A stretch of DNA of 64,000 bases from Denitrovibrio acetiphilus DSM 12809 (GTDB taxonomy: Bacteria > Chrysiogenota > Deferribacteres > Deferribacterales > Geovibrionaceae), in assembly GCF_000025725.1 (NCBI RefSeq), contig NC_013943.1:1178001-1242000 (forward strand). Reading direction: 5' to 3'. The stretch's first letter is position 1. Each line of letters opens with the position of its first letter. The notes below the pieces were generated by a model. That model was not told the DNA's origin, made no database searches, and saw nothing but the letters and a program-made list of their open reading frames with translations. This document shows positions 1 through 3,576 of the stretch, in pieces. The position numbers and the translations under genes are program-made.

Positions 1-194
1 TCTGACTTGCTGGACTTATTTGAAAAGATTGTCGACATTCCTTTGATGGCTTCACTCTTCCATTTAGAAATCTGGTTCGGATGAACATTATACTTGGCTG
101 ATAATTCCGATAAGGTCAGTTCTTCCCTCAGAGCTTCAAGAGCTACTTTTGATTTAAACTCGGCTGAGTAGCGGGTACGTTTTGTTTTTGACAT
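1..194 (-). CDS. IS3-family transposase OrfA, partial
   Basis: First 64 residues of a small helix-turn-helix transposase subunit, cut by the window edge. The protein opens MSKTKRTRYSAEFKSKVALE, the usual start of IS3-family OrfA proteins, and continues with the HTH stretch LTLSELSAKYNVHPNQISKW. In this family OrfA binds the element ends, and a programmed frameshift joins it to a DDE catalytic OrfB. OrfB would lie left of the window, so I cannot say whether the element is intact. A Shine-Dalgarno GGAGG lies 7 to 8 bases before the ATG at 194, so translation signals are preserved. Confidence 0.85.
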   Translation of the reverse strand, partial: MSKTKRTRYSAEFKSKVALEALREELTLSELSAKYNVHPNQISKWKSEAIKGMSTIFSNKSSKS

Positions 195-257
195 CGTGTG
201 ATCCTCCAATATGCTTTTTCCACCTTAGCATATTGTACAGATTTCTGGGACCACCTC
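1..257 (-). mobile_element. Right-hand edge of an IS3-family insertion sequence
   Basis: The OrfA gene is preceded by about 60 bases of non-coding sequence ending in TGGTCCCAGA (minus strand, 253 down to 244), which resembles the terminal inverted repeat region of IS3-family elements. The tip is placed at about 253-257 by position only. The other end, and therefore the target-site duplication, is outside the window. The radical SAM gene stops about 90 bases further right, so the insertion lies just downstream of the RiPP locus. Confidence 0.6.
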
Positions 258-348
258 TTGATGCAAAATTAGAGTAGTATGCTGTGATAAAATTGTGATG
301 GGATTTGGCTAAAAGACGGATGAGCTGCCAGAGTTAGAACTTTTTGTC

Positions 349-1623
349 TTATTTGGGGAATCCTGTGAAAATTAATTCATACCCGTATTTTAAAGCACTG
401 CATTCAGGATCGGGTTTATCGAACCTGCCGTATTTTTTATAAACAGCGGCCTTGCATCCTCCTCCGCAAATACTCATGAAATGGCAGTCGGAGCATTCAT
501 CAATATCGTATGTGTGCACTCTTATATCATTGAGAACAGGGTTACAGATTATGCTTGCAAAGCTCTCTTCTATGACGTTTCCTAGCAAAAACATAGTTTC
601 GTGCAGTAGATGGCACGGGAACACATTTCCTTTCATGTCAATGTTTAATGTAGATTTTCCTGTACCGCAACAAAATAGATTTCTAGTGCTTTGAAGAGTG
701 ATAATGCTCTGACTGTTTCGGGTCGAAAGCCGGTTACGCTGCTTGTGCGAAAGATTATTTTCAGAGTCTATCAAAATTTCCATAAACTTTTTATAGTCAA
801 GAGAAATACTGCCGTCAGAATCACTTATTTTCCTATAATTATTTGGTGTATAACCTCCGCCTTTATCAACGGAATACAGCATCATCTCCTGAAAAAGATG
901 AACATTTCCGTCGTGAATTGTGGGGGCAATAGTGAAAGGCACATTGTATTTATGTAATGTATCTACCCCTGATACGGTCTCAGCAAACGTATCCCCCCGG
1001 GTAATCTCATTGGTTTCGTCATTGGTTCCGTCAAGGCTTACTTGGACATTTTTCAGATAGTTACAGGCAGAAAGCTTATCGGCGATCTCATCATTGATTT
1101 TCGAACCGTTTGTTAATACTTGAAAATTCAGCTTCCTGTTTTCAAGTATCTCTATCAGTTTAAGAAACTCAGGATGTAAAAGAGGCTCTCCGCCTGTAAC
1201 TAATATCTGAGCATTAGGATTAAAATTTGCGACTTTTTCGACAATTTTCGCAAAAATACTAGTTTCGATATAGCTGGTTACTTGGTTACGTTTGTTAATT
1301 TTGGGCTGAATATAGCAATATTTACAATTATAATTGCATAATTCAGATACTATGACATATACAGCATCCAACGCCCCGCCGTAATTGTTCGGTCTGGATT
1401 CTCTCATCCACCCTTCGTGGTTTAGCTTATTTATAAATTTTTCAACAACAGTTTTATCTATCTGTAAGTTCTCAATGATTTCTCTAGAGGCGCAGGTATC
1501 ATATCCCTTTAGAATATGAAATAACAGCAGTTCAAAATCATTAAAACAGCTCAAAGCTCCTGTTTCATCGTTTGAGAGAATATTTAAGTTGTTGATATTG
1601 GACGACTTTGTATATGGCAGCAT
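349..1623 (-). CDS. Radical SAM/SPASM peptide maturase
   Basis: Putative RiPP-modifying radical SAM enzyme, 424 residues. Residues about 27-75 look like a small winged-helix, PqqD/RRE-like leader-binding domain. The core follows: C96-x3-C100-x2-C103 for the SAM-binding 4Fe-4S cluster and GGEP at 144-147. The C-terminal SPASM domain is complete, with C319, C337, then C377-x2-C380-x5-C386-x3-C390 and C408, which is the seven-Cys pattern that ligates two auxiliary clusters. Its start lies 15 bases after the stop of the precursor gene, so the two should be co-transcribed. Family knowledge says such enzymes make thioether or carbon-carbon links in peptides. Which bond is made here is unknown. The SD before ATG 1623 is weak, suggesting coupling to the precursor. 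Confidence 0.85.
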   Translation of the reverse strand: MLPYTKSSNINNLNILSNDETGALSCFNDFELLLFHILKGYDTCASREIIENLQIDKTVVEKFINKLNHEGWMRESRPNNYGGALDAVYVIVSELCNYNCKYCYIQPKINKRNQVTSYIETSIFAKIVEKVANFNPNAQILVTGGEPLLHPEFLKLIEILENRKLNFQVLTNGSKINDEIADKLSACNYLKNVQVSLDGTNDETNEITRGDTFAETVSGVDTLHKYNVPFTIAPTIHDGNVHLFQEMMLYSVDKGGGYTPNNYRKISDSDGSISLDYKKFMEILIDSENNLSHKQRNRLSTRNSQSIITLQSTRNLFCCGTGKSTLNIDMKGNVFPCHLLHETMFLLGNVIEESFASIICNPVLNDIRVHTYDIDECSDCHFMSICGGGCKAAVYKKYGRFDKPDPECSALKYGYELIFTGFPK

Positions 1624-1637
1624 GGTCTTGTTTTCTT

Positions 1638-1868
1638 TTAGACTTCGCCACCGACACTAACGCCGCCGCCTGCTCCAAGAGACCCGCAAACAGTAAGCCT
1701 TAATTCTGTTGTTTCAACCAGACCTCTGTTTGCTTTGTTGATAGTGGAAATATCAAGCTTATCAACGTCTAGTCCTTTTGTTGTAAGAACTTCTTTTGGG
1801 TTTTCCAAAAACTTTTGTTTCATTGCGTCATCAGAGTCAATTTGTTTTAAAACATCAATTAATTGCAT
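1638..1868 (-). CDS. RiPP precursor with NHLP/Nif11-like leader
   Basis: A 76-residue peptide. The leader (about 1-50) has the pattern of nitrile-hydratase-like/Nif11-like leaders: an amphipathic start, then KQKFLENPKEVLTTKGLDVD. The C-terminal core is short and glycine rich, with one cysteine (C61) followed by GSLGAGGGVSVGGEV. There is no double-glycine signal at the leader/core border that I can place with confidence. A very strong ribosome site, AGGAGG at 1875-1880, sits 6 bases before the ATG, fitting a highly expressed substrate. The maturase gene follows 15 bases downstream. No protease or exporter gene is visible nearby. It could act inside the cell or use a general exporter elsewhere. 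Confidence 0.75.
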   Translation of the reverse strand: MQLIDVLKQIDSDDAMKQKFLENPKEVLTTKGLDVDKLDISTINKANRGLVETTELRLTVCGSLGAGGGVSVGGEV

Positions 1869-2223
1869 GGTGTACCTCCTTTTTAGTCACTGGAATAGCA
1901 TTTCATGTCATACCTAAATTAGTTAATATGAGCATAATTAATTTTAGCATCTTTTATTCACAAAACAGGCATAAAACAGTATTTTTGTGTATTTTTTTGT
2001 TATTGAAATTTAAAGACAGGATAATTGATTCTCAGAATACAGGTTTTGAGTTTTTGTAATGATTCTCTTAACAAGAGAGTTTTTGAAGACTTTAATTATT
2101 ATTTACAGCTTTGAAAAGCTAGTGAACGGCGCAAAACATAATCTTACGCCGTTTTGAATTTTGAATATTATCAGCAATACATAAGTGTGTATCTGGTTGA
2201 CTTTCCAGTAGGTTTTGGTTGCG
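1869..2223. other. Intergenic region between rimK and RiPP precursor
   Basis: 355 bases without a gene. It must hold the promoter of the precursor (minus strand) but I see no convincing -35/-10 pair in this AT-rich stretch. Two hairpins are present: 2062-2080 (8 bp, including one G-U pair) and 2125-2153 (7 bp). Either could end transcription of rimK and insulate the RiPP genes. Confidence 0.5.
2125..2153 (-). terminator. Candidate rimK terminator hairpin
   Basis: AACGGCG (2125-2131) pairs with CGCCGTT (2147-2153), about 70 bases after the rimK stop. The T-run is better on the plus strand (TTTTGAATTTT) than on the minus strand, so function in the rimK direction is uncertain. Confidence 0.35.
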
Positions 2224-3126
2224 TTACGCTCCGACGCTGTCCCTTTTTCTCTTGCTGCTGTCTTTTTCTATGAATTCTATGACTTTGGATGCGACATCCA
2301 CTCCTGTAACAGTTTCGATCCCCTCAAGACCAGGGGAAGAGTTCACCTCTAGTATAAGCGGACCTCTGGCTGATCTGAGCATGTCAACTCCGCAGAAAGG
2401 CAGGTTCATGGCTTTTGACGCTGCAATGGCTATTGCCTTCTCTTCTTTGGTCAATTTGACTTTTTCACCTTTTCCTCCTCTGTGCAGGTTTGAGCGGAAA
2501 TCAGACTCGTCGCCTCTTCTCATCATGGATGCAACAACCTTTCCCCCTATAACTATTGTGCGCAGGTCAGAGGATTTTGCCTCTTTTATAAATTCCTGAA
2601 TGAGGATGTTTACCTTCATTCCGTAGAATGCTTCAATGACAGATTTTGCTGCTTTATAAGTGTCAGCGAGGACAACGCCTATACCCTGTGTGCCCTCCAG
2701 CAGTTTGATTATAACAGGGGGGCCTCCAACGTTTTCTATTATGGAGTTTACGTTTTCGGGGGTGCATGCAAATGCTGTTTTTGGTATATTTACATTGTGT
2801 TTGGAGAGAATCTGGAGGCTCCTCAGCTTATCTCTCGCCCGGACAATGGCTATAGACGGGTTTATAGAATACGCTCCGCATGTTTCAAACTGACGCACAA
2901 CAGCAGCACCGTAAAAAGTTTTAGTTGCGCCTATTCTGGGAATAACGGCATCAAGGTAGCTTTTCTGTTCGCTTCCTATGGAGACATCGCCTTCACCAGT
3001 GCCTATAAACATATGGGACTTAACGTAATCTATCCTTTCCATCTCGTGCCCCCTGGAGGTTCCGGCCTCTAGGAGTCTCTGGGTTGAATAGTATGAGTCA
3101 CTTCTTGAAAGAACAGCAATTTTCAT
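2224..3126 (-). CDS. rimK: RimK-family ATP-grasp amino-acid ligase
   Basis: 300-residue ATP-grasp ligase of the RimK type. In enterobacteria and pseudomonads the family adds glutamates to the C-terminus of ribosomal protein S6; relatives ligate glutamate to other peptides or cofactors. Visible features: N-terminal pre-ATP-grasp domain (1-95), ATP-binding K141 and the E144-G-T-Q-G-I-G150 loop, and the metal-binding E260-V-N262 near the C-terminus, so the active site looks complete. It starts 3 bases after the stop of rimB, a known pairing in many proteobacteria. Substrate here is inferred, not shown. Confidence 0.9.
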   Translation of the reverse strand: MKIAVLSRSDSYYSTQRLLEAGTSRGHEMERIDYVKSHMFIGTGEGDVSIGSEQKSYLDAVIPRIGATKTFYGAAVVRQFETCGAYSINPSIAIVRARDKLRSLQILSKHNVNIPKTAFACTPENVNSIIENVGGPPVIIKLLEGTQGIGVVLADTYKAAKSVIEAFYGMKVNILIQEFIKEAKSSDLRTIVIGGKVVASMMRRGDESDFRSNLHRGGKGEKVKLTKEEKAIAIAASKAMNLPFCGVDMLRSARGPLILEVNSSPGLEGIETVTGVDVASKVIEFIEKDSSKRKRDSVGA

Positions 3127-3129
3127 TTT

Positions 3130-3576
3130 TCACCTGTTCGATGTATAGGACAAATCCTTTTTGGATACATCTACAATAAATTTTCCACTCAGCATTCTAC
3201 TCCCTATGAGTACAGGGAATTTCATGTCTTTTCTGTTTGTCAGGGTCAATTCTATAGAATAGGTCTTATTAAATATAATAACTTTGGTTCTGACTGAATA
3301 TCTGGTTTCAGTAATTCCGTTAGAGCTTTTTACGTTTCGGATCTTGCAGATATCCATAACTATTTCTTTTTCGCAGTATTTTTTGTGGCTTGGGTCAAGC
3401 ACTTTAAATGCTACTCTTTGAATATCATCAGACAGAAATGTCCTGATACTGTGACAGTGAATAGATGAGGTGTGAGCGCCCGTGTCTATCTTTGCTGCGA
3501 TATCAAAAAGATCAAATTCAGGGAAGTCAATTCTGTCAGTCAAACCTATGACTTTAAGTCTTTTTTCACTTTTCAT
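3130..3576 (-). CDS. rimB: RimB-like retropepsin-fold protease (DUF785 type)
   Basis: 148-residue protein of the family often labelled 'ATP-dependent zinc protease', whose fold is a single-domain retropepsin. The active-site motif is seen as K29-I-D31-T-G-A34-H. In Pseudomonas a protein of this family acts with RimK and trims glutamate tails from S6. The gene is first in a two-gene unit with rimK. Its SD (GAGGA, 3583-3587, 6 bases before ATG) is part of a predicted stem in the leader (see 3584-3673), so translation may be controlled. Confidence 0.8.
   Translation of the reverse strand: MKSEKRLKVIGLTDRIDFPEFDLFDIAAKIDTGAHTSSIHCHSIRTFLSDDIQRVAFKVLDPSHKKYCEKEIVMDICKIRNVKSSNGITETRYSVRTKVIIFNKTYSIELTLTNRKDMKFPVLIGSRMLSGKFIVDVSKKDLSYTSNR

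Follow-up and report, generated by a model that had tools for sequence, protein, structure and literature searches.

We identified in Denitrovibrio acetiphilus a gene pair that encodes a short precursor peptide and a radical SAM/SPASM maturase. It is a real and rare representative, as yet without a name, of an established kind of RiPP locus, and it is ordinary in plan. A homologous enzyme in a second phylum also follows a peptide with a homologous leader, and thus the pair is most unlikely to be a chance arrangement. By analogy with characterised enzymes, we propose a horizontally acquired RiPP locus in which C61, the only cysteine of the precursor, would receive one thioether; we give this explanation as a whole a probability of about 0.5. 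No paper on the locus was found in the literature, and the main text of a survey of RiPPs in anaerobes makes no mention of Denitrovibrio.

The precursor peptide

The stretch of DNA analysed here (the window, 64,000 nucleotides) spans 1178001-1242000 of the single-contig D. acetiphilus genome (3,222,077 bp); strain N2460T has been described with a circular chromosome of 3,222,077 bp (PMC3035293). From ORF and profile analysis, the precursor gene lies at 1638..1868 on the minus strand and encodes 76 residues from an ATG start. The start is preceded by AAAAGGAGGTACACC, a strong ribosome site with the Shine-Dalgarno sequence AAGGAGG and the spacer TACACC (1869..1881, minus strand). The maturase ORF (349..1623, 424 residues) follows on the same strand, 14 nt beyond the precursor stop codon. 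On re-checking, the positions, the single cysteine at residue 61 and the core given in an initial annotation were all exact.

The precursor is comprised of an NHLP-like leader (about residues 1-50) and a Gly/Ser/Val-rich tail, with a core of about TVCGSLGAGGGVSVGGEV that holds C61 and has no aromatic residue. Residues 6-42 match the NHLP/proteusin model TIGR03793 (E 5.7e-5), including an ENPxxVLxxxG segment common to the relative described below, scoring 22.9 bits where the curated cut-off is 50.9. The leader had been annotated as NHLP/Nif11-like: it resembles NHLP without formal membership of that family, and the Nif11 part does not hold, as no Nif11 model appears among the Pfam and NCBIfam matches up to E 10. 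The system also differs from the proteusins in that the precursor lacks a GG-type cleavage site before the core, the genome has no detected C39-type exporter, and the maturase is not a PoyD epimerase. No C39 peptidase was detected in the D. acetiphilus genome, nor is an exporter or leader-peptidase gene found alongside the pair. AlphaFold, run on the precursor without an alignment, predicted helices in residues 3-51 and a disordered tail, with low confidence.

The maturase

The enzyme matches the Pfam Radical_SAM (1.3e-24, residues 90-239) and SPASM (6.1e-10, residues 319-408) domains, both over their curated cut-offs; together with a short, leader-bearing precursor that is linked here and in one relative, this places the pair within the general radical-SAM/SPASM RiPP kind. 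C96, C100 and C103 form the CxxxCxxC motif, and the SPASM region contains seven cysteines (C319, C337, C377, C380, C386, C390 and C408). Each of these ten cysteines is also present in the relative, in an alignment at 33% identity. The N-terminal region (about residues 10-80) is winged-helix-like, with weak matches to winged-helix models. Aligned by hhalign with three PqqD proteins, it gave P 0.002 over 70 columns, compared with 0.13 for a reversed control, which is suggestive of an RRE. The AlphaFold model of the maturase was poor (mean pLDDT 46).

We compared the maturase to curated families and to solved structures. No NCBIfam cut-off was reached. The best model was the StsB sactipeptide maturase (NF045574, 111.5 versus 625 bits), and it is also the closest for the relative (143 bits against the same cut-off), with alignments that take in the N-terminal domain. 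The ranthipeptide PapB (NF047865, 97.1 bits, cut-off 340) and SCIFF (TIGR03974, 72.3 bits, cut-off 425) models scored lower. For the maturases of both loci, models of heme, mycofactocin and cyclophane maturases lay close in score as well, in each case below cut-off. The Nif11-like radical SAM maturase system (TIGR04064) has the same plan, a long leader of the broad class and a SPASM maturase, but scores 73.8 bits here against 518.7, and its Nif11 leader type is not matched by our precursor. Matches to antiphage viperins were confined to the shared radical SAM core and were discarded. When a two-sequence profile of both family enzymes was searched against solved structures, CteB (5wgg) and SkfB (6efn) ranked first; both are thioether-forming enzymes (PMC8326336). 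Identity to the characterised maturases compared is about 25%, and therefore their chemistry is not transferable.

A related locus in a second phylum

Two diverse samples of 385 and 386 genomes, which overlap for the most part, yielded one true relative, the sole close one found (G364; E 2e-75, about 33-34% identity over residues 13-412). It belongs to another, small phylum, of which seven genomes were searched. The locus (L022 7009-10759) contains a precursor-like ORF, the enzyme and two further genes. The precursor-like ORF (74 residues, MTPKDAYAKIYADPKLQKAFSENPIAVLAELGVESPLIVVKTNVPKPAGALPTPGSQNCACVSIGCIVCGDVGA) lies upstream of the enzyme, in the same order as in Denitrovibrio, at a spacing of 273 nt. 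The leaders of both precursors align ungapped over residues 5-42 (BLOSUM score 48 over 38 residues), and none of 3000 shuffles did as well. The cores share only VCGSLGA/VCGDVGA (VCGxxGA, P about 0.018) and differ in cysteine number, one in Denitrovibrio versus four in G364. Judged from these two loci, the linkage of NHLP-like peptide and maturase is conserved and the number of cysteines is not.

The second locus bears out the initial reading of a RiPP precursor with a SPASM maturase. That reading was to fall if homologous enzymes occurred without such a peptide; the G364 enzyme has an NHLP-like peptide upstream, and the RiPP reading is therefore favoured. The single cysteine had been called unusual. 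The precursor does have only one, but its unusualness was overstated, given the precedents of SkfA and NxxcA and the four cysteines of the G364 core, which make the single cysteine a local feature rather than a family hallmark.

The two genes that follow the G364 maturase (L022 7009-8951) encode paralogous proteins of 296 and 351 residues, 31% identical over 116 residues, that match no known Pfam or NCBIfam family. We consider them a candidate new RiPP accessory pair. No homologue of either was detected in the Denitrovibrio genome, in a search that carried no positive control. The G364 operon is also without an obvious exporter.

The maturase was absent at E 1e-30 from 50 other genomes of the Denitrovibrio phylum. 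No further member was found in the phyla of G364 and of two other genomes (G092 and G186), or among plasmids and viral contigs. Among other enzymes with E values of 1e-26 to 1e-33, those with fully read flanks showed no NHLP-like peptide alongside and were set aside as different families. A scan of contigs with the maturase gave only segments of other radical SAM proteins, 24-36% identical. The family has only two known members, in two distant phyla. Two other loci were noted as observations in their own right: another candidate RiPP cluster, where less than 4 kb encodes a PqqD-like protein, a radical SAM protein and a 58-residue peptide with ACSTTPCTVSPSGSGF at its end (L030 3443-7201), and a Duodenibacillus contig with five consecutive ORFs carrying CxxxCxxC motifs and radical SAM-like sequence (L007 4400-11050).

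The flanks of the locus

An IS3-family element lies 90 bp beyond the maturase stop codon. Its right end, with orfA and the terminal inverted repeat AGAGGTGGTCCC, occupies 1..258 of the window on the minus strand. The whole element (G000:C1:1176985-1178258; L001 16985-18258) contains HTH_Tnp_1 and rve domains and has the ends AGAGGTGGTCCC...GGGACCACCTCT. Several further copies, 90-100% identical, are present in the genome; two of them, both partial, are separated by about 3 kb in the region of 1.138-1.142 Mb.

On the far side of the element (G000:C1:1175288-1178258; L001 15288-18258) is a Tn7-type tnsA, identified by Pfam, followed by a gene that stops at the element after about 319 codons. This gene has no Pfam match, and from its place after tnsA and a reading of its sequence it is probably a truncated tnsB. 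The near side shows no remainder of this probable tnsB, and the element is not flanked by a clear target-site duplication. Thus, rearrangement of the junction is probable, with a possible loss of genes.

Upstream of the precursor, rimK-rimB (2224..3576, minus strand) provides the native context. In a genome of the same genus, rimB-rimK is followed by an AstE/AspA-type gene in place of the precursor/maturase locus; D. acetiphilus has no such gene after rimK. The block is therefore foreign or rearranged. The locus had been described as consisting of two genes, with no exporter or protease beside them. Two genes do adjoin here, but two genes as the ancestral state is doubtful, given the IS3-family element, the broken probable tnsB and the two additional genes in the operon of the relative. 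The statement on neighbours is literally true for the exporter and carries little weight, since what lies 3' of the pair is an IS3-family element next to a broken gene, and since the same-genus genome has a different gene after rimK.

Proposed chemistry and alternative explanations

We propose that the RRE-like N-terminal domain of the maturase would hold the helical NHLP-like leader while reductive cleavage of SAM at the CxxxCxxC cluster would yield a 5'-deoxyadenosyl radical. A small residue of the Gly/Ser/Val core, close to C61, would lose a hydrogen to this radical. The thiolate of C61, coordinated to a SPASM cluster, would attack to form one thioether and so lower the mass by 2 Da; the likeliest partner is the alpha carbon of a Gly, Ser or Leu within a few residues. 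To remove the leader and export the product, the system would rely on genes at other sites in the genome or on ones that disappeared where the 3' flank is broken.

There are precedents for such a product. SkfA and NxxcA carry a single thioether made by the radical SAM enzymes SkfB and NxxcB (PMC8326336), as we propose for C61, although we found no similarity between their leaders and that of Denitrovibrio. In streptosactin, a small sactipeptide, cysteines bond to Ser and Gly (PMC8172795) through S-C-alpha links. The Denitrovibrio system differs in its NHLP-like leader, in having no adjoining protease or Rgg regulator, and in a single cysteine that permits at most one S-C-alpha bond. We take NF045574 to be of the streptosactin/GGG type. 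The linked, leader-homologous ORF beside the 34%-identical G364 enzyme, the VCGxxGA motif in otherwise different cores, the conservation of every radical SAM and SPASM cysteine, the rank of StsB as closest curated model, albeit far under its cut-off, and the CteB and SkfB matches all argue for this explanation. Against it stand the small family, the weak similarity of the core motif, an RRE that is only suggestive, the poor AlphaFold model, the lack of an export or leader-peptidase gene alongside, and the chance that the locus is a non-functional remnant.

Such a remnant, of a larger cluster whose downstream genes were removed at the IS3-family junction, so that the pair yields no exported product, is an appreciable possibility, though we hold it to be somewhat improbable. 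It concerns whether a product is still delivered, and hence overlaps the chemical readings without competing with them. The element close behind the maturase, the missing tnsB-like remainder and lack of a clear target-site duplication, the two additional G364 genes without a detected homologue here and the absence of a C39 peptidase are in line with decay. However, both frames are intact, the ribosome site is strong and the catalytic cysteines are all conserved, and the G364 operon likewise lacks an obvious exporter. It is unlikely, if plausible, that the pair makes a RiPP by a cysteine-independent change (a C-C link, epimerisation, beta-scission or similar), with C61 free or otherwise modified. 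SPASM maturases carry out many chemistries, and both enzymes score near the heme, mycofactocin and cyclophane models; yet what the core has in common with that of G364, which contains three more cysteines, is VCG, the nearest solved structures are thioether enzymes, and a cyclophane would need a core aromatic residue. We regard it as highly improbable that the maturase acts on something else and that the short ORF lies beside it by chance. Many SPASM proteins do act on non-peptides (heme, a tungsten cofactor), and models of this type were matched too, but the NHLP match and the homologous leader beside a homologous enzyme in another phylum, which no shuffle equalled, argue for the pairing.

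Implications

The locus represents a rare maturase-peptide pair in two distant phyla, outside every named NCBIfam family. More tentatively, and we think this rather unlikely, the two members may define a new radical SAM RiPP family in which an NHLP-like leader is recognised and one crosslink, possibly of an undescribed type, is formed at VCGxxGA in cores with one to four cysteines. The flanks also advise caution, as "minimal two-gene" loci can be insertion-sequence leftovers. Cores with one and four cysteines under homologous enzymes offer a natural comparison with which to probe the role of VCGxxGA.
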